61,253 nucleotides of DNA, taken from positions 1-61,253 of the forward strand of contig JAJZDN010000022.1 of NCBI GenBank assembly GCA_021805985.1. Reading direction: 5' to 3'. Below the pieces are notes generated by a model. The model searched no databases. It was given only the letters and a program-made list of their open reading frames with translations, and had not been told where the DNA came from. The stretch is from Planctomycetota bacterium (lineage in GTDB: Bacteria; Planctomycetota; Phycisphaerae; WQYP01). Shown piece after piece: positions 903 through 61,253 of this stretch. The position numbers and the translations under genes were made by a program. How positions within the stretch are numbered: position 1 is the stretch's first letter; the number at the start of each line of letters is the position of its first letter.

Positions 903-1148
903 TTACGGTTCAGTCGAATTGCCGAATCGTTTGCGGTGCCGCAGCGCCAAGTTGCTGCGGGTGGCAGCGTCACCTTCCAGCCAGTGCAGAATCAGAGCTT
1001 CCAGCACCAGCTTGGGATTGGCCAGATGCCGGGCGCAATCTTCTTCAAACGAGTCAAAGAGTTCGGTGTTGAAACGATAGGTGCGTTGCACGGTCAGAGG
1101 TTTGCGGGCCAGGTCCGAAGATTTCGCCGATTTACTTTGCTTTGCCAT
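903..1148 (-). CDS. Small protein of unknown function, shared by both elements
   Basis: 81 aa, basic N-terminus (about 20 residues rich in Lys, Ser and Ala), then a conserved core containing YRFNTELF, FEEDCARHLANPKLVLEAL and a basic tail. I do not recognise the family. The core, with a short strand-like segment followed by helices, could be a ribbon-helix-helix DNA-binding fold, but that is a guess. A homologue at 60273-60521 is nearly identical across the core and clearly similar at the DNA level. The gene is divergent from the excisionase-integrase unit, as its homologue is from the serine recombinase unit. The ATG at 1148 is preceded by AAGGTAG. Confidence 0.8.
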   Translation of the reverse strand: MAKQSKSAKSSDLARKPLTVQRTYRFNTELFDSFEEDCARHLANPKLVLEALILHWLEGDAATRSNLALRHRKRFGNSTEP

Positions 1149-3109: not shown

Positions 3110-4687
3110 ATGAGTCTGTTTTTATGTATTTATCTGCCCGATTGGGATATTCAGGCGATGCGGTTAAAACAACGGCGGGCTGATGCACTATTATCCGCCA
3201 AGGTACCGCGGCCCCTGCTGTTGATTGCAGAACAGGCACGGCAGGAAATTGTGGGGCGATGTTGCGACATTTGCCGCCGGCGAGGTATTGTTCCCGGCAT
3301 GGCGGCGGCGGAAGCACGGGCCTTATTGCCCCGCGTGGAGATAATGCCTTTGGATGGCATGGCCAGCACGCGGCTGCTGGAAAAGTTGGCGCGATGGGCG
3401 TTGCGATTTTCTCCTCTGGTAAGTATCGGGGAGTCATTCCCGGATCATCACCCTTGCCCCGCTGCGGATTGTCTGTTACTTAACATCACCGGAATGGAAC
3501 ATCTGTTTAACGGGCCGCTCGCCTTAGCCCGGCGCATCACCGCCCTGCTGCGGCATAACGCATTAACCTGCCGCACCGCTATTGCCCCGACCCTCTCCAG
3601 TGCGGCAGCGCTGGCACGTTATGCAGAAACGCCTGCATTCATTGACGATCCTGCGGATATTCCCGCAGCTGTGCGGAACTTTCCTCTGGCGGCATTACGC
3701 ATCAGTGCCGACACGCAGGCGGCATTGCGCGAAACAGGCGTGACGTGCCTGGGGGAAATAATGACCCTGGCGCGTGATCAACTGGCGGTTCGCTTTCCAC
3801 CAGAATTACTGCTGCGATTGGATCAACTGCTGGGGCACCGGATGGAATTGCCGCCCTTGATCACCTTATCCAGTACGCCACAGGCCCAGTGGCGGGCGGA
3901 TGGACCGGTGGAAAATCTGGAGGGGATTCTATTGGCGGCTCAAGCATTAACCGATCAGTTATCACAGACGTTAACTCAACGCAACCTGGGTACCACGCTG
4001 CTGACTATAGAAATGCAGGGGGAATATACGGGGACATCCACCGTCACGATTCCTCTGACACAGGCGGTGCGACGTGCCGACCGGCTGTGGGCCGCCATCC
4101 GACCACGGATAGAGCAACTGCGGCTCACCGGTGGCATTGAAGTCCTCACCATCCGTGCGGAACAAACACATCTTCTTCCACCGGAGCAATTGCACGCTGA
4201 TACCTGCACCGCCTGGCGCAGCAATCCCACCATGGCACCGCTGGCTCCGGTGCTGGACATTTTGCAAACGCGACTGGCCGGCCGGCGCATCGGCATGGCC
4301 GCAGGCGGACAGTCGCATATTCCCGAGCAGGCCATGCGCCTGAACAGGCTCAACACAATGCAGGACCCTATGGCGTCAACAGCCTCACACGCATCGCCCA
4401 GTGGATTTGCCATCATTCCCCGGCCGTCGCTGCTGCTGGCTCCGCCGCAACAGGCGCTGGTGATAACCGGAGGCCCTGCTAACGCACCAGAGCATATTCA
4501 ATGGCAGGGCCGCATTTATACCTGTCAGCAGGTGATCGGGCCGGAGCGATTAACCACGCCCTGGTGGACAGGCACGCCATCGGTTACACGGGACTACTTT
4601 GCCGTGCTGGACCAGACGGGGCAATGGCTGTGGTTATTTCATGAAGTGGAAACCGGGCAATGGTTGCTGCATGGAGTGTGGGTCTAG
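3110..4687 (+). CDS. imuB: ImuB-like Y-family polymerase homologue (mutasome accessory protein)
   Basis: 525 aa, related to Y-family polymerases. The N-terminal segment YLPDWDIQAMRL and the motif LLLNITGMEHLFNG stand where true DinB/UmuC enzymes carry the metal-binding acidic residues and S-I-D-E. The usual acidic set is absent, as in ImuB proteins, which are not polymerases but bridge DnaE2 to the beta clamp. The palm and thumb cover about 1-240, followed by a little-finger-like part and a long C-terminal tail. It is 49 bp upstream of dnaE2 in the same direction, so the pair is surely an operon for damage-induced mutagenesis. ImuA and LexA, usual partners elsewhere, are not nearby. Confidence 0.9.
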   Translation: MSLFLCIYLPDWDIQAMRLKQRRADALLSAKVPRPLLLIAEQARQEIVGRCCDICRRRGIVPGMAAAEARALLPRVEIMPLDGMASTRLLEKLARWALRFSPLVSIGESFPDHHPCPAADCLLLNITGMEHLFNGPLALARRITALLRHNALTCRTAIAPTLSSAAALARYAETPAFIDDPADIPAAVRNFPLAALRISADTQAALRETGVTCLGEIMTLARDQLAVRFPPELLLRLDQLLGHRMELPPLITLSSTPQAQWRADGPVENLEGILLAAQALTDQLSQTLTQRNLGTTLLTIEMQGEYTGTSTVTIPLTQAVRRADRLWAAIRPRIEQLRLTGGIEVLTIRAEQTHLLPPEQLHADTCTAWRSNPTMAPLAPVLDILQTRLAGRRIGMAAGGQSHIPEQAMRLNRLNTMQDPMASTASHASPSGFAIIPRPSLLLAPPQQALVITGGPANAPEHIQWQGRIYTCQQVIGPERLTTPWWTGTPSVTRDYFAVLDQTGQWLWLFHEVETGQWLLHGVWV

Positions 4688-4695
4688 GAGCCTGT
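4682..4695. repeat. Dispersed repeat fragment at the imuB stop codon
   Basis: GTCTAGGAGCCTGT matches exactly, in reverse complement, the repeat at 15446-15459 at the end of pepA. The imuB stop codon lies inside it. Confidence 0.4.
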
Positions 4696-4736
4696 GCACG
4701 CAGAAACTTTCTGCAGGTTTTGTGATGTGAGCGGAT

Positions 4737-7700
4737 ATGCCGGAACAGCCTGAAAAGCGTTATAAACCGGCAGTGACACAGCGACGTGCCGGGGCTGGCG
4801 GAGCAAGGCACTATGTGGAATTGCAAACCACCAGCAACTTCACATTTTTGCATGGAGCCAGTCACCCGGAGGAACTTATTCAGCGGGCCGCCGAACTGGA
4901 ATATGATGCCATTGCCCTGACGGATCACGCCACAATGGCCGGGATGGTGCGGGCGCACACCGCGGCCAAACAGGCCGGCATACAACTGATTGTCGGAACA
5001 TATATACGCATTGATTTGCCAACATCTGACTCTTATTCGCGGCCTTGTTGTAATGTGCTGTTATATCCCACCGATGTGGCCTCGTATGGTCGCCTGTGCC
5101 GCCTGATTACGCTGGGACGCAGACAGGCCGCCAAGGGATCTTATCGCATCACATTAGAAAATGTATTGACGCATCAGGCCGGTCTGCTGGTTATCGCCTT
5201 GCCACCGATGCACCCGGATGCCGCATTTACCGATACTCTGATGACCTTAAAATCCGTAGTGGATGATGATCGACTTTCACTGGCGATAAGCCGCCGCTAC
5301 GGTTGCGATGATGCTCAAACGCTTCAACAACTGGCGGAAATATCTCGTCACACGGAACTTGCACTGGTAGCAGTGAATGATGTGCTGTATCACGCGCCGC
5401 AACGCCAGCGGCTTCAGGATGTGCTGGCGTGCATCCGCCTGGGCTGCACGATTCATGAATTAGGCCTGCAGCGCATCACCCATGCTGAACGCCATTTGAA
5501 ATCACCAGGGGAAATGCACCACTTATTCCGGGATTACCCGCAGGCCTTGAAACGGCCGCTGGAAATAGCGGCACGGGCTAAAGCCTTTTCCATGGATCAA
5601 TTAACTTATCACTATCCACATGAAATTTGCCCGCCCGGCTTTACTCCGATGGACTACCTGATTCACTTAACACTAAAAGGGGCCGCGCAACGCTATCCGG
5701 ATGGCGTGCCGGAATCGCTGCAACGGCGGCTGGAACATGAATTTTCCCTGATCCGGGAATTAAATTATCCCGCGTACTTTCTTACCGTGTATGACATTGT
5801 GCGCTTTGCGGTATCACAGAATATTTTATGCCAGGGCCGCGGCGCGGCGGCCAATTCCGCAGTCTGTTATTGCCTGGGCATTACGGCGGTGGATCCGCAG
5901 CGCATTGACCTGCTGATGGAGCGGTTCATCAGTAAAGAACGCAATGAGCCGCCGGATATTGATATTGATTTTGAACATGAACGCCGCGAGGAAGTCATTC
6001 AATATATCTATAAACGTTTTGGCCGAAATCGTGCGGCCATTACCGCGGAAATTATTTCCTATCGCCGTAAAAGTGCGCTAAGGGATGTGGGCAAAGCCAT
6101 GGGCCTTTCCTTGGATTGTGTAGACAAACTGGCGAAAAGCGGCGACTGGTGGGAGAAGGGAATGATCCGGGAAAACCAACTGCGAAGCCTGGGGCTTAAC
6201 GCCTCAGACCCAACGCTTGCCCAGGTACTGGAGCTGGCGGGAGAATTAATCGGTTTTCCCCGCCATTTATCGCAGCATGTCGGCGGTTTTGTTATTACAG
6301 AACAACCGTTGTGTGAACTGGTTCCCATTGAAAATGCTGCCATGCCGGATCGCTCCATCATTCAATGGGACAAGGATGATCTGGATGCGATGGGCATTTT
6401 GAAAATTGATATTCTGGCTCTGGGGATGCTTACCTGCATCCGCAAAGCCATTGATCTGGTAAATAGCCAAAACACGCCCTGCCCTGCCGGACAGGACATC
6501 ACCTTTGCCACCGTGCCGGCAGAGATAACCAGCGTTTATGACATGCTGTGTCAGGCGGATAGCATTGGCGTGTTTCAAGTGGAATCACGGGCACAGATGG
6601 CCATGCTACCGCGGCTTAAACCGCGATGTTATTACGATCTGGTTATTGAAGTGGCCCTGGTGCGGCCCGGCCCCATTCAAGGCGGCATGGTGCATCCCTA
6701 TTTACGCCGACGTAGCGGACGGGAACCGGTGGACTATCCATCGGCGGCGGTGCGCGGGGTGCTGGAACGTACCTTGGGCGTACCGCTTTTTCAGGAACAG
6801 GTTATGCGACTGGCCATGGCGGCGGCAGGTTTTACACCGGGGCAGGCGGACGCATTACGCCGCAGCATGGCGGCGTGGAAACGCAAGGGCAACCAGTTGG
6901 CGGCATTCGGCGGACAATTGATCACCGGGATGTTGGGCAACGGCTATACGCAGGAATTTGCACAGCGCTGTTTTGAGCAGATCAAAGGCTTCGGAGAATA
7001 TGGGTTTCCCGAATCTCATGCCGCCTCGTTTGCGCTGTTGGTTTATGTGTCCGCATGGTTGAAATGCTTTTATCCGGCAGCTTTCGCGGCGGGGCTGTTA
7101 AACAGTCAGCCGATGGGATTTTATCAGCCAGCACAAATTATCCGCGATGCGCAAAATCACCGCGTACAAGTGCTGCCGGTGGATGTGAACCATTCTCAGT
7201 GGGACTGCACACTGGAATGGGCGTCGGGCGATGTGGCGTCGGCAAGCCGCCCGCTCTGTGCCGATGGGCCGGCTCTGCGATTGGGCTTGCGGATGGTGCG
7301 CAGCCTGCATCAGAGCGGCGCAGATTTAATATGCGATGCGGTGACACACCATGGCCGGATGGAATCGATTTCCACCTTACGCCGATTGAGCCGATGTAGC
7401 CTGGCGGATTTAAAATCTCTGGCACGGGCAGATGCGTTTGGTTCCATGGGCCTGGATCGGCAGGAAGCATTATGGAGCCTGCGGCGATTACGATCGCAGG
7501 CGATGCCCCTGCTGGATGAATTAAATCCGCCGGAACCGCGGCCCGGTTTGCCCATCATTGCGGAATCTGACAAAGTCATCGGCGATTATCAGAGCGTGGG
7601 ACTATCTCTTAAAGCCCATCCCATGTCCTTCGTGCGAGCGGTCCTTAATCAGCGCGGCATTATAGCAGCCGGCGAGTTAGCGGATGCCATTCGCCACCCC

Positions 7701-7997
7701 GATGCCAGCAAAGTGGCGGTGGCTGGATTGGTATTGGTGCGGCAGCGCCCCGGCACCGCATCCGGGATTTTATTTATCACCATGGAAGATGAAACCGGCA
7801 CCGTGAATCTGATTGTCAAACCGCGAATCTATCAGCGGTATCGCATGGACCTGCGCCACAGCACCGCCCTGGTGGTATGGGGTCAGGTGCAACGCCAGGA
7901 AGGCGTCACCCACATCATCGCCCGGAGGGCGGTCAATCTGCAAACCTTAACCCGCAGCACCGACACATTACAAAGTGTCTCGCGGGATTTTCATTGA
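4737..7997 (+). CDS. dnaE2: Error-prone DNA polymerase III alpha subunit DnaE2
   Basis: 1086 aa, a normal DnaE2 length. The N-terminal PHP domain (about 25-230) starts with the DnaE2-typical ELQTTSNFTFLHGASHPEEL and contains LTDHATMAG. The polymerase core has GRGAAANS and the active-site acidic run PPDIDIDFEHERREE (about 405-418). A helix-hairpin-helix region and a C-terminal OB fold (about 995-1060) follow. It carries out error-prone lesion bypass with ImuB at the replication clamp. It is co-transcribed with imuB. The ATG at 4737 has only a weak purine-rich site upstream, consistent with dependence on imuB translation. Confidence 0.95.
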   Translation: MPEQPEKRYKPAVTQRRAGAGGARHYVELQTTSNFTFLHGASHPEELIQRAAELEYDAIALTDHATMAGMVRAHTAAKQAGIQLIVGTYIRIDLPTSDSYSRPCCNVLLYPTDVASYGRLCRLITLGRRQAAKGSYRITLENVLTHQAGLLVIALPPMHPDAAFTDTLMTLKSVVDDDRLSLAISRRYGCDDAQTLQQLAEISRHTELALVAVNDVLYHAPQRQRLQDVLACIRLGCTIHELGLQRITHAERHLKSPGEMHHLFRDYPQALKRPLEIAARAKAFSMDQLTYHYPHEICPPGFTPMDYLIHLTLKGAAQRYPDGVPESLQRRLEHEFSLIRELNYPAYFLTVYDIVRFAVSQNILCQGRGAAANSAVCYCLGITAVDPQRIDLLMERFISKERNEPPDIDIDFEHERREEVIQYIYKRFGRNRAAITAEIISYRRKSALRDVGKAMGLSLDCVDKLAKSGDWWEKGMIRENQLRSLGLNASDPTLAQVLELAGELIGFPRHLSQHVGGFVITEQPLCELVPIENAAMPDRSIIQWDKDDLDAMGILKIDILALGMLTCIRKAIDLVNSQNTPCPAGQDITFATVPAEITSVYDMLCQADSIGVFQVESRAQMAMLPRLKPRCYYDLVIEVALVRPGPIQGGMVHPYLRRRSGREPVDYPSAAVRGVLERTLGVPLFQEQVMRLAMAAAGFTPGQADALRRSMAAWKRKGNQLAAFGGQLITGMLGNGYTQEFAQRCFEQIKGFGEYGFPESHAASFALLVYVSAWLKCFYPAAFAAGLLNSQPMGFYQPAQIIRDAQNHRVQVLPVDVNHSQWDCTLEWASGDVASASRPLCADGPALRLGLRMVRSLHQSGADLICDAVTHHGRMESISTLRRLSRCSLADLKSLARADAFGSMGLDRQEALWSLRRLRSQAMPLLDELNPPEPRPGLPIIAESDKVIGDYQSVGLSLKAHPMSFVRAVLNQRGIIAAGELADAIRHPDASKVAVAGLVLVRQRPGTASGILFITMEDETGTVNLIVKPRIYQRYRMDLRHSTALVVWGQVQRQEGVTHIIARRAVNLQTLTRSTDTLQSVSRDFH

Positions 7998-8112
7998 CCG
8001 AAAGCACAAAACAAACGCTATTTTCGATATTTTACGTCATAACTGGCATATTTTTTGCTTTATTGCTACAATATTATGCAGTATTGATTCCCTTTGAGAA
8101 AGGCCTTAATCC

Positions 8113-9435
8113 ATGTTACTTTCTTTTTCAGTAGAGAACTTCTATTCCTATCGGGAGCGGCAGACCCTAAGCCTGTTGGCTGAAGACCGCGAGGACTTGA
8201 TAGAAAACACAATCCCGATTGACGCTCCGGCCCTACGCGGACACCGAATAGTAAAGTTCGCCGGCATTTATGGTGCCAACGCATCCGGAAAAACCAACTT
8301 TCTCCTTGCCTTTCATCGGCTCACCGAGATCGTTGCAAATTCCGCTAAAGAAAGCACGTCGGCTGATCAATTACTTATCACGCCGTTCCAACTCGATGAT
8401 GCCTGGGCAAAACGACCAACTCACTTTTCCGCGACATTCGTGATCGATAACGTGGTCTACGTATATGACGTTTCGCTTAGCAAAGATCGCATACACTCCG
8501 AGGAACTGACGGCTTTTCCCAAAACACATCCTCAGCGACTTTTTAGTCGACGCGTAAACTCTCACGGAAAAAGCCAATGGCATTTCAGCCGCACGCACTT
8601 CCGACGGGACAAAGCCCTGGAAAGTCGAACCAGGCATAATAGCTTGTACCTTTCGGTTGGAGCATTATTCAACCATCCACAATTGGCAATGATCTCGGAA
8701 TATTTCTGCCGCTGCAGCCTGCGTGCGCCCCACTCCGCTGACACGGACTTTATTAAGCTTATGTCCCGGTGTGATACTGATACGAAGTTCAGTCGATGGG
8801 CTTCAGAGATGCTCTCCACAGCCCATACTGGGGTCGCCGCGTTGCGCCTGCGTGACGTGGATATACATGATCCGCATCTTGCGCATCTGCTGCTGGCGCA
8901 ACGTGACACCACGAAGCCGCATTCCTTCGGGGCAAAAGAAATGCAGGTAGCCCACGTGAAATCCGATGGGCAAACGGTTTGGTGGCCGATGCGATGGGAA
9001 TCTCAGGGAACAAAGCAATTATTGAGCCTTCTTCGCTCCTGGTATGACATACTAAACCAAGGGGGACTGGTTCTCGTGGACGAAATTGAGGCCAGCCTTC
9101 ACCCGTTGCTTTGCCGCCGCCTGCTTACAATGCTCGCGGAAACCCGCCCGAGCGAACACCACGGACAGCTGATATTTACAACGCATGACGCCACACTGCT
9201 GGACCTGAGCATTTTGCGCCGGGACCAGATTATTCTGGCGGAAAAATCCGGTGACGGAGCAACACAATTGGTTTCATTGCTTCATTACACACCCCGCGCC
9301 GGCGAGGCCCTCCAGAAAGGGTACCTTTCAGGCAGGTACGGTGCTATTCCTCTTTTAACGGAGTTGAAGCTTCATGGACAAAAACCGGCGAAAGGCAATT
9401 CCAAAAAAATTACACTATCTTCAACAAGCAGTTGA
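8113..9435 (+). CDS. rloA: RloA-like AAA15-family ATPase, anti-phage defence
   Basis: 440 aa. It starts with LSFSVENFYSYRE and has a Walker A GANASGKTN at 54-62, a Walker B with LVLVDEIEASLHP near 318-330 and an H-loop TTHDATLLD. This is the OLD/AAA15 type of ABC-like ATPase. With the TOPRIM protein encoded next it forms an RloA/RloB (AbiL-like) pair. By analogy with OLD, PARIS and AbiL systems, the ATPase is expected to sense a phage signal and release or activate the TOPRIM nuclease; that role is inferred. It overlaps rloB by 62 nt, implying coupled translation. It follows dnaE2 by 115 bp of AT-rich DNA, which probably carries its promoter. Confidence 0.85.
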   Translation: MLLSFSVENFYSYRERQTLSLLAEDREDLIENTIPIDAPALRGHRIVKFAGIYGANASGKTNFLLAFHRLTEIVANSAKESTSADQLLITPFQLDDAWAKRPTHFSATFVIDNVVYVYDVSLSKDRIHSEELTAFPKTHPQRLFSRRVNSHGKSQWHFSRTHFRRDKALESRTRHNSLYLSVGALFNHPQLAMISEYFCRCSLRAPHSADTDFIKLMSRCDTDTKFSRWASEMLSTAHTGVAALRLRDVDIHDPHLAHLLLAQRDTTKPHSFGAKEMQVAHVKSDGQTVWWPMRWESQGTKQLLSLLRSWYDILNQGGLVLVDEIEASLHPLLCRRLLTMLAETRPSEHHGQLIFTTHDATLLDLSILRRDQIILAEKSGDGATQLVSLLHYTPRAGEALQKGYLSGRYGAIPLLTELKLHGQKPAKGNSKKITLSSTSS

Positions 9436-57468: not shown

Positions 57469-57930
57469 ATAAGGCACCTTCCTAAAAAAACTACACCAAT
57501 CGCTTGCACACAAAAGGCCCGAATAATGGGCCAAAATAAAGCTCTAAATCTCTGCGCCGCGGAGTTGCCGGGCACGGATTAATATCCGCCCCGATCTCGC
57601 ATGTCCATGACTTTAACACGTTTTTATTAAATTACAAGTTATCAATCGCGGATATTCTCAACGCCGGAAGTAACCCGATACCTCTGGCGTACAGCGTACC
57701 GCGACATTCCCCGAAAATTGGTCAATGAAATTGAGCGTGATCAAGTCGAAGCCGTGATGGCATGACCCAATTCGGCCAAGTCTTGACCCCCGGCAGACTA
57801 CGCCTGCCCCTGGCGGCATTCGACTAACATGATGAAAGCGATCGTCAGAATAAAGACCGATGGACATAAAGATGAATGGCTACCGAGCACTTTAAGTTTT
57901 TTTCATAATGTGTTAAGCTAATAGTCAAAT
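57469..57930. other. 462-bp gap upstream of tRNA-Pro
   Basis: No supported gene. Open frames are short and without motifs. It should contain the promoters of the membrane protein gene (leftward) and tRNA-Pro (rightward); CATAAT at 57904-57909 is a possible -10 for the tRNA. Confidence 0.5.
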
Positions 57931-57986
<56 letters not shown>

Positions 57987-58005
<19 letters not shown>

Positions 58006-59468
58006 TTATCTGGCGGAATCAGACCGCTGGTGAGCACATCGAAGGGTTTTCGCATTGAAAAATCAAGCTTTTCTTCTTTTAACGTCAAGTTCAAACAGAC
58101 AATTTCCAGAAGCTGCCGCTTTTCCTGACTTTCCGCTGTAAGCCATTTCTCTTTCAGGCTTTGCGAAAGTTCAAACACTTTCAACGCCAAATCCCCGTGT
58201 TCATCCCGGCCCCGGCCTTGGGCCTGCAATTGCAATTCCAGACTCGCCAGGCGATCCCGCAATTCGGTATCCTTAGCCGCGTAAGTATCGGTGGTGATTT
58301 CTTCCATGATCCGCAAATTCAATAGCCGGTCCCGGAATTGCTTGGCTTGCGTAATCTGCCGCTGTAAATCCTTGGCTGTATCTTCCGTTTCGCTCCGTTG
58401 CTGTTTGGACCAGGCCAGCAGGCTTTGCTGGAACCAGTGTCGGAGATCATCGGGCAGGCGGATGCGATCAAACAGGGCCAGCACCTGCACGTCCAGTGCG
58501 TGTTCCGTCAGGCGAATGCGGGGATGGCCCGGCGCGGTGTACTTGCTGCATCGGTAATACACATACTCTTTTCCGGTTTTCTTTTTCGTCACCGATTCCC
58601 CGGTAATCACCGCGCCACAGTGCCCACAGGTTACCAGGCTGCCCGCATATGTGAGATCATGACCTTGGTATCGCTTGCCGCCCAGTAGAACCTGTACACG
58701 GTCAAAGGTGGCCCGATCCACCAAGGGCTTATGTTTTCCGGCATACCATTGATCCTGGTATCGCACTTCCCCGATGTACGCCCGATCCCGCAGGATGGAA
58801 TGGATCTTGCTGCGGGTCCACTGGGGCATGGTATCAATGTACGTGATACCCTCGGCTTCCAGCTTTTTCCGCATACTGTCGATGGTATGGCTTTCATAGG
58901 CGTACATCTGGAACAGGCGTTTTACTTTCGGGGCCTGTTGCTCATCCACTTCGATCAACCCCCGGCCATCAATTCGGATATTCCGGTATCCGTGGGGCGC
59001 TGCACCGCAGAACAATCCGCTTTGCACTCTTCTGGCATGGCCCTCCCGTACATCCAACCCTTGCTGTTCCGTGGTGTAGCTGGCGAACATGGCCAATTGC
59101 CGCCGCATCATTCTGCCGGCCGGGCTATTGTCGGTAGGCTGGCTGGTGGAAATGAAGGGAATGTGGTATTCCGATTCCAGCCTTTCAAGTTCAATGTAGT
59201 CATACAGATTCCGGGCTGCCCGATCCACTTTGTAGAAGAGCAGGCCGTCTATCTCGGCAGCGTGTTCCATGGCGTAGGTAATGAGTTCCCGGAAGGTTTT
59301 GCGTTCATCCCGCCGGGTGGCTGTTTCGGCGATGCGGTACAGCTTTGCAATAGTGCCATCATGCCGCTGAGCATAAGCTCGCAGGGCATCTTCCTGTACA
59401 TCCAGTGAAAAGCCTTCACGTTCCTGTTCCCGACTGCTGACCCGTGCTAATGCTACATACCGTTTCAT
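57987..59468 (-). CDS. Large serine recombinase (site-specific integrase)
   Basis: 493 aa from the ATG at 59468. The N-terminal resolvase domain has YVALARVSSREQ with the catalytic Ser, and conserved KVDRAARN and GRMMRRQLAMFA. The recombinase domain follows (about 165-270, AAPHGYRN, IHSILRDRAYIGEV), then a zinc ribbon (CGHCGAVI and a later YYRC) and a coiled coil (about 350-450). It would integrate and excise the element at tRNA-Pro. The last residues (NRGDRI) are read from the antisense of the tRNA 3' end. A longer open frame starts at 59510 but lacks conserved sequence. Confidence 0.93.
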
Positions 59469-59715
59469 GCTTGTTGACCCCCGACAAGACCCCAAAGAGA
59501 TTACCGACATTCAATAGAATGCCAATGGCATCTTCCGGCGTCAAGGGTTGAGCATAATAAGGTTGCCAGACACGTAGCGTCGAGGCAATCAGATCGGCGG
59601 TGATCCATGCGGGTAAACCGGCAGGCACAGCCCGCGCTGCGGCATCAGGATCAACCCGCCGGTCAACCGGTGCGTTGGCCACCTTATCTTTGGAGAATCG
59701 ATTGACGCGTTGCAT
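59416..59715 (-). CDS. Small accessory protein overlapping the serine recombinase
   Basis: 99 aa from an ATG at 59715 (another at 59721). The middle (WITADLIASTLRVWQPYYAQPLTPEDAIGILLNVGNLFGVL) looks like a compact helical domain. I think I have seen this pattern in small genes beside serine recombinases in related bacteria, but cannot name a family. It overlaps the recombinase start by 53 bp in another frame, pointing to coupled translation. The residues past the recombinase start look like non-conserved tail. It may be a directionality factor or regulator, by position only. Confidence 0.65.
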   Translation of the reverse strand: MQRVNRFSKDKVANAPVDRRVDPDAAARAVPAGLPAWITADLIASTLRVWQPYYAQPLTPEDAIGILLNVGNLFGVLSGVNKHETVCSISTGQQSGTGT

Positions 59716-59842
59716 AACCATCCCGCACTTCAAACATCCGTCTATCGCACTGCGTGAAGCCAGCCCGCAGGCCTACGCGAATAAGGTGGCCGCCGGAACA
59801 CACAAACTCCCCGGCCAGGACACCCTAGCATCATACGAACAC

Positions 59843-60272: not shown

Positions 60273-60521
60273 ATGGCCAAACGAACCAAACCAGCAAAGA
60301 CCGCCAAGAGCGCCGACAGGCCCCTGACCGTCCAGAGAACCTATCGGTTCAATACCGAACTCTTTGAATCCTTTGAAGAGGATTGCGCCCGGCACTTGGC
60401 CAATCCCAAGCTGGTGCTGGAGGCGCTGATTCTGCACTGGCTGGAAGGTGACGCCAAGGCCCGAAGTGCCATCGCGATGCGTCATCGCCAACGCTTTGGA
60501 TTATCTTCCCAGGACCAGTAA
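60273..60521 (+). CDS. Small protein of unknown function, homologue of the 903-1148 gene
   Basis: 82 aa from the ATG at 60273; a TTG nine bases upstream is less likely. Basic N-terminus (KRTKPAKTAKSADR), then the same core as the left-element protein: PLTVQRTYRFNTELF, FEEDCARHLANPKL and LILHWLEGDA are shared. The tails diverge. High conservation of protein and DNA in two different elements suggests a maintained function or recent exchange. A DNA-binding role is a guess from size and charge. Confidence 0.8.
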   Translation: MAKRTKPAKTAKSADRPLTVQRTYRFNTELFESFEEDCARHLANPKLVLEALILHWLEGDAKARSAIAMRHRQRFGLSSQDQ

Positions 60522-61253
60522 TTCCCGCATCGGCATCGGCCCCCACGATCACCAAGGCACCACGCCGCGGCAACGCTCCAACCGGCGGCATCAATCGTGT
60601 AATTACCATGCTTTGTCCTCGGCTTGTGCCGGGCAACCGTCGCGCCCTCGGCTATGTTCCACTTCGCTCCGTCACGCCGGATTGCTCCGGCTCCAACCGG
60701 TACAAAGCACTGGCCGAAACACACTTCAGACCGCCCGCCTTGGCTTCCCGCCCTCTGACGTGGAAGGCCAAGGTGCGTCCCGATCTATCGGGATTGTGGA
60801 CGCAACCGGATGGACGAATGGGAGGGTGTTGAAAGCTCCCCCCGCTGGCATTGGCGAGGTAACAACAACCGACCGGCGCGACGTTTCGAGGCGGTTCCGA
60901 ATCGCCGGTGGAGCTTCCTCGGCAGCCCCGTCGCCCATGATCCATGGCGAAGTCAATGCCAAGTTGCCGAGGGGCGCTTCACCTTGGCTGACTTGGTTCG
61001 GTGGATGGTTTTGCCGCGCCCCATGGCACCGACACATTGGCGTTCCGCACCGTTGCCCGCCGTCCCGTGTCGGCACATGGCCACGCCATCAAGAAGGATA
61101 ATGGTTCTCTCCCGCGCAGGCTTTTCGCGCTGCTTGTCGCGTGGGCCAATGGCTCCCGGCGATGCCGACGATCCGCGCCAACAGGCTGTCAAGCAGGCCC
61201 TGTTCTTTCCCCGATCAAGCCGACTAAACAACCGCCAAGGTTTCCCGGAACAC
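60522..61253. other. 732 bp at the right edge without a supported gene
   Basis: G+C-rich sequence with several overlapping open frames on both strands, none with a motif I recognise. One frame starting at an ATG at 61101, after AAGGA, is still open at the window end after 51 codons and may be the start of a gene. Confidence 0.4.

Follow-up and report, generated by a model that had tools for sequence, protein, structure and literature searches.

Why should two elements that integrate by unrelated recombinases carry the same small gene? The question is raised by contig JAJZDN010000022.1 of a Planctomycetota bacterium (GCA_021805985.1), analysed here in its whole length of 61,253 nt and called the window below. 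Its left and right ends each lie inside an element, and it shows the following features.

41-706, + strand: S24-family repressor gene, convergent with copy A of the small gene; marker of the ICE-type core
903-1148, - strand: small predicted control gene, copy A, 81 aa; type-A (ICE) core
1199-1239, + strand: excisionase/integrase promoter of copy A, TTGACT-18-TATAAT
1210-1228: weaker variant of the predicted operator, overlapping this promoter; matrix score 15.7
1279-1494, + strand: excisionase-like HTH_17 protein
1579-2901, + strand: tyrosine integrase (PF00589); the ORF opens at 1498, the likely ATG is at 1579 and the 3' end overlaps tRNA-Leu
2853-2934, - strand: tRNA-Leu, integration target of element A
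about 2935-57930: chromosomal part of the window
57930-58006, + strand: tRNA-Pro, integration target of element B
57987-59510, - strand: large serine recombinase (PF00239, PF07508, Zn ribbon)
59416-59733, - strand: 105-aa ORF, lying upstream of the serine recombinase gene and overlapping it, conserved in loci L009, L012 and L013
59852-59888, - strand: two predicted operator units of copy B, ATAACTGTAATAATGACAT and TTGACTTTGTTAATGACAA; scores 28.5 and 27.8
60273-60521, + strand: small predicted control gene, copy B, 82 aa; type-B (oriT-mimic island) core
60522-61253: start of the conserved non-coding region of type-B islands, whose oriT block lies past the contig end

A small gene at the junction with exchangeable integration modules

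An earlier note on this DNA had described the two small proteins as nearly identical through their core, and they indeed share 76% identity over 80 aa (E = 7.6e-38), residues 19-58 being almost invariant. Among 12 close homologues, all substitutions in codons 21-40 fall on third positions (0/0/34), hence the protein is under strong constraint; together with the E value, this excludes a chance similarity of the two copies. Pfam and tRNA calls agree with the note in placing one copy beside a tyrosine integrase at tRNA-Leu and the other beside a serine recombinase at tRNA-Pro, and both copies are divergent from the integration unit, as it had stated. The protein itself finds no family match in Pfam, PHROG or NCBIfam.

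The source genome has 7 copies of the gene, which also occurs in about half of the genomes sampled from its family (all genomes analysed are MAGs), nearly always within integrated elements. A few homologues occur outside the family, in other members of the same class, and none was found in phage, plasmid and viral collections, on which a phage or plasmid origin was rejected. This previously unnamed gene marks a mobile-element family in acid-loving Planctomycetes.

Homologues scattered without any link to recombinases, which the earlier note had named as the observation that would speak against it, were looked for. A tyrosine or serine recombinase lies at most 3.4 kb from the small gene at all 19 same-family loci whose upstream sequence is long enough (both window copies, L009-L012, L015-L018, L020-L022, L024-L027, L033 and L035); L019, with an integrase truncated at the contig end, comes in addition to these. 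Two distant loci of another family likewise have a recombinase nearby. Four distant loci depart from this rule and have toxin-antitoxin genes as neighbours, and trbE adjoins at least two of them: there the homologues stand between AbiE or RES genes and, where the sequence allows, trbE. Elsewhere the homologue is divergent from an excisionase-integrase pair with a relaxase near (L099, genome G120) or immediately precedes a serine recombinase gene of the same orientation (L096, G170). The distant homologues support a link with conjugative elements, and the arrangement is not universal. One locus, L030, is on a contig labelled Methylococcaceae (CADDYU010000157.1) and is a close relative of the planctomycete element L028; mis-binning or cross-phylum transfer are both possible.

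The order tRNA, integration module, small gene and core is kept in nearly every same-family locus, with eight types of tRNA as integration targets. What changes is the module: a tyrosine integrase of the L022 type with its own HTH protein, integrases of the IntA type and further tyrosine integrases paired with a second HTH type, a third tyrosine integrase in L010 (which L014 resembles in its upstream region), or a serine recombinase. Type-B cores with 88-95% DNA identity are joined to unrelated integration modules, most pairs of which have no detectable DNA similarity; modules have thus been swapped at the small gene. The same is seen on the type-A side, where copy A and the C28 copy are 97.7% identical in the gene segment and 98% in the S24 gene with unrelated integrases. 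The serine label does not form a cluster on the core tree, where it needs 4 changes versus a shuffled mean of 3.3, and by eye L023 is recombinant in the operator region and L020 inside the small gene.

Some details of the window deserve mention. The 105-aa ORF in front of the serine recombinase, without Pfam match, could at a guess be a directionality factor. Between the operator and copy B, the window carries about 300 bp more than L009 and L012 (59890-60240), with CGGCCTGATGCACAACT repeated at the ends, possibly a small insertion. On the chromosomal side, ImuB-like and DnaE2-like genes (judged by eye) adjoin the end of the tRNA-Leu element, followed by an AAA_21 ATPase (3110-9435).

The two cores and the shared oriT

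In the type-A core, the S24 repressor gene adjoins the small gene. The ICEs of this genome are each assembled only in part; the L022 and L027 contigs carry genes for a TraF-like protein, TrbI, G, F, L, J, E and B, TraG and a DUF3363-relaxase. Pfam supports seven of the ICE genes, namely the relaxase, TraG (T4SS-DNA_transf), TrbB (T2SSE), TrbE, TrbG/CagX, TrbI and S26/TraF, and the relaxase combines its DUF3363 match with a sub-threshold match to MobA/VirD2. Integrase, relaxase, coupling protein and T4SS genes, which define an ICE, thus stand together on both contigs; the far attachment site of these two ICEs was looked for and not found. The Tn4371 gene set comprises a TraF-like peptidase, an RlxS-type relaxase, TraG and TrbBCDEJLFGI-type genes (PMC2789088), and judged by the same transfer genes the type-A core is that of a Tn4371-like ICE. 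Membership of the Tn4371 family proper is defined by an integrase more than 70% related to intTn4371 and by the TTTTTCAT target (PMC2789088), whereas the elements described here target tRNA genes, their likeness being drawn from the transfer genes rather than from the integrase. The gene order also differs from Tn4371, TraF lying beside the S24 repressor and the small gene. In the trbB-trbE interval of the L022 and L027 contigs (there L091 and L094) lies cargo whose ORFs, some TIR-like, some nucleotidyltransferase-like and some very large, look to the eye like anti-phage defence genes.

In the type-B core, about 1.3 kb of conserved non-coding DNA come after the small gene, and beyond them lies variable cargo, which by eye includes RHS-like giant proteins and glycosyltransferases among others. 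The window stops within the non-coding region; its last 127 bp are shared by contigs C174 and C6, both of which continue into the same region and the oriT block. A coding function of the 1.3 kb was rejected on the lack of codon periodicity and on indels, 50 out of 52 of which are not multiples of three, and an Rfam search at the gathering threshold returned no family besides tRNAs, that is, no known structured RNA in this region. In L009, both strands give a folding signal between about +320 and +545, counted from the start of the gene, with an alifold z of about -4 to -5; the corresponding segment, at about 60590-60820 of the window, is conserved, separate from the oriT block and without Rfam match. 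In the C73 copy (L033:16520-17711), a stretch of about 1.2 kb bearing transposase-like ORFs breaks up the non-coding region.

The terminal block of this region is a homologue of the DNA just upstream of the ICE rlxS gene (87% over 108 bp, E = 1e-32), and the island copy contains the nick core TATCCTGC with a covarying hairpin. In MOBP systems, the nick consensus (C/T)ATCCTG(C/T) is found beside an inverted repeat (PMC3772185). Here, 31 distinct oriT blocks were collected, most of them with TTTATCCTGCC and a minority with TAGCTTGCC, TAACTTGCC or other variants, and the hairpin shows two fully compensatory positions and 88% pairing against a shuffle maximum of 81.5%; a nick core in most blocks and a covarying inverted repeat are what a MOBP-type oriT displays. 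Several loci carry two oppositely oriented oriT-like blocks with different hairpin subtypes (L009:11455/11670, L010:8845/9059, L034, C6, C174, C119 and G024:C72).

As in IMEs and MGIs, the islands have their own integration module with attachment repeats: besides the recombinase, direct repeats of the tRNA 3' end, 16-20 bp long, bound L010 (12.9 kb), L009 (15 kb) and L012 (17.7 kb). In these three islands no relaxase match was obtained and no trb genes were seen, and the helper-like oriT, carried without a T4SS of their own, is found in the type-B loci that reach far enough. By its sequence, the type-B core is that of an island of 13-18 kb mimicking the oriT of the ICE.

A direct-repeat motif at integration and relaxase promoters

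Upstream of the small gene, loci with different module types have in common a tandem direct repeat, of consensus TTRACTTTRNTAATGACAT, which overlaps the -35 box of the divergent promoter; at copy B, its two units overlap the -35 box of a promoter reading toward the serine recombinase. A matrix trained solely on these integrase/excisionase-side sites scored 28.3 and 26.4 at two rlxS promoters, compared with a chromosomal maximum of 15.1 in 55 kb, and on the two ICE contigs containing rlxS, the rlxS promoter is the best or second-best site. There the motif lies downstream of a separate promoter, TTGACG-16-TATAAT, which rules out that it is a mere -35 box. Exact matches are restricted to such positions: the 4.68 Mb of the genome contain 11 of them, five at int/xis promoters, four at rlxS, two at island oriT copies and none elsewhere. 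In nine operator-positive relatives of the same family there are 20 further exact sites, 13 at rlxS, six at the small gene and one as an island oriT pair. Type-A loci with IntA-like modules, including copy A, carry at the integrase promoter a weaker variant with scores of about 13-16, that of copy A (15.7) being close to the best chromosomal background (15.1).

Gene and operator occur together: counted over 150 genomes, gene versus operator gives 10/5/2/133 (p = 1.6e-10, with phylogeny ignored), and within the family p = 1.5e-4. All operator-positive genomes of family f1 carry the small gene, three of them without a full S24 match. Five genomes have the gene and no exact operator match (G022, G025, G026, G009 and G120), of which G026 gives matrix matches of 29.3 and 19.3.

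A predicted switch coupling excision and transfer

We suppose, with a probability of about 70%, that the small gene is a regulator which ties excision to transfer, in helper ICEs as well as in islands that mimic their oriT. Sitting where the exchangeable integration module plugs into the conserved core, it encodes a predicted operator-binding protein, as its position and its co-occurrence with the operator suggest. The protein would bind the tandem repeats at two kinds of site. At the divergent excisionase/integrase promoter it would cover the -35 box; at the relaxase promoter it would sit just past the -10 box, some 60 bp away from the oriT nick site. Its action there is probably repression, which at both promoters would keep the element integrated and untransferred, relief freeing both steps together. 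Type-B islands, which keep an integration module, the gene of this regulator and an oriT mimicking that of the ICE, would leave the chromosome on the same signal as the ICE and be mobilised in trans by its relaxase and T4SS.

That the shared gene serves a function common to the elements, as the earlier note had proposed, is well supported. Among the functions that it had envisaged, regulation of integration or excision and initiation of transfer are those retained here, while copy control has gained no support, no replication or partition neighbours being seen at the small gene. In an assembly of two contigs, a remote homologue (L097) lies on one of 81 kb. The note had also called for structure prediction in search of a ribbon-helix-helix fold. 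Proteins of this superfamily (MetJ/Arc/CopG) fold as strand-helix-helix and pair into an intertwined dimer. The AlphaFold2 monomer (pLDDT 64, pTM 0.30) displays three helices after an unstructured stretch, with helices 28-41 and 45-58 following the invariant T-x-QRTYRF stretch, and no strand. Comparisons with the PDB by fold (Foldseek) and by sequence gave no match, nor did hhalign to CopG or the profile searches. Such a fold stays plausible: the protein is probably of ribbon-helix-helix type, an assignment drawn solely from its sequence pattern, with which the weak model is compatible.

The main rival holds that the small protein is chiefly a relaxosome accessory factor, whose binding beside the nick site would bend oriT and bring in the ICE relaxase; islands would then be hitch-hikers of the 'oriT plus accessory factor' kind and transcriptional control a by-product, as for MobC of RA3. 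It is the main rival because the operator lies near the nick site, at about 60 bp in the ICE, and because RHH proteins like MobC combine both roles (PMC4175270; compare SmpO, PMC8136818). Moreover, several islands lacking rlxS keep the operator beside one oriT copy (scores 22.7 in L009, 18.8 in L010 and 24.1 in C6). This role nevertheless leaves aside the strong sites at the int/xis promoter, distant from oriT, and the forward oriT block of the islands, which has no adjoining operator; the ICE site, for its part, occupies a repressor-like position right after the TATAAT of the rlxS promoter. We hold a mainly relaxosomal role to be rather unlikely.

The operator could also be read by another protein of the element, an S24 repressor or the excisionase, with the small protein serving elsewhere, for instance in toxin-antitoxin function or exclusion. 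S24 repressors control many integrated elements, S24 co-occurs with the operator (p = 2.9e-7), and distant homologues of the small gene are divergent from AbiE and RES toxin genes. The operator-gene association is somewhat tighter, however, and operator-positive genomes G003, G006 and G024 have no S24 match at E <= 1e-40 (G003 has an S24 fragment at a contig end), which weakens S24 as the only reader. Excisionases vary among modules whereas the operator is constant, and the small gene is the sole protein seen in all types of carrier. Another reader seems to us quite improbable, and we retain the small protein as the predicted binder and the coupling of excision and transfer as its likely task.

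Networks of helper ICEs and hitch-hiking islands are known mainly from Proteobacteria and Firmicutes; for Planctomycetota, a search of open-access text found no description of such a system. The system described here is a Planctomycetota variant of the known oriT-mimic island/helper-ICE kind. Its nearest parallel is SXT/R391, whose islands of the MGIVflInd1 type have their own integrase, an oriT mimicking that of the ICE and excision under the ICE regulator (PMC5397120). Own integrases, mimicked oriT and shared control are common to both; in SXT/R391, however, control is shared through the ICE-made activator SetCD, whereas here a small regulator gene, probably for a repressor, is present in ICE and island alike. 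The phylum differs, and the present system has swapping of serine and tyrosine modules and islands with two oriT subtypes. More generally, 'oriT only' and 'oriT plus accessory factor' are recognised modes of IMEs (PMC5704250). MobC of RA3, a small DNA-binding protein, has its site at the promoter of the relaxase operon, next to a MOBP oriT (PMC4175270), as is predicted for the small protein, and the RHH relaxosome and regulatory proteins TraY and SmpO are to be likened to it in the same way. At 176 aa, MobC is nonetheless longer than the 81-82 aa of the small protein, its gene adjoins that of the relaxase, and a control of integration is not known for it. The small protein has no detectable sequence similarity to MobC or other RHH relaxosome proteins. 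Several oriT subtypes common to conjugative elements and non-conjugative hitch-hikers are found with staphylococcal elements of the pWBG749 type (PMC8136818). The mimics there are plasmids, whereas here they are integrated islands, some with two opposed oriT subtypes.

In a wider reading, to which we would give about even odds, the small protein represents a new family of DNA-binding regulators that delimits a network of full ICEs and non-autonomous islands, all carrying the same switch and operator. The promoter/operator would be a socket for unrelated tyrosine and serine modules, and some islands would hedge with two opposed oriT subtypes for different helper relaxases. The results point to a helper/island network in Planctomycetota that combines a defined operator and a MOBP oriT with several islands in each genome, and that provides a signature by which genomes can be searched. 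It would offer a clean test case of unrelated integration modules placed under one regulator and of islands adopting the control circuit of their helper.
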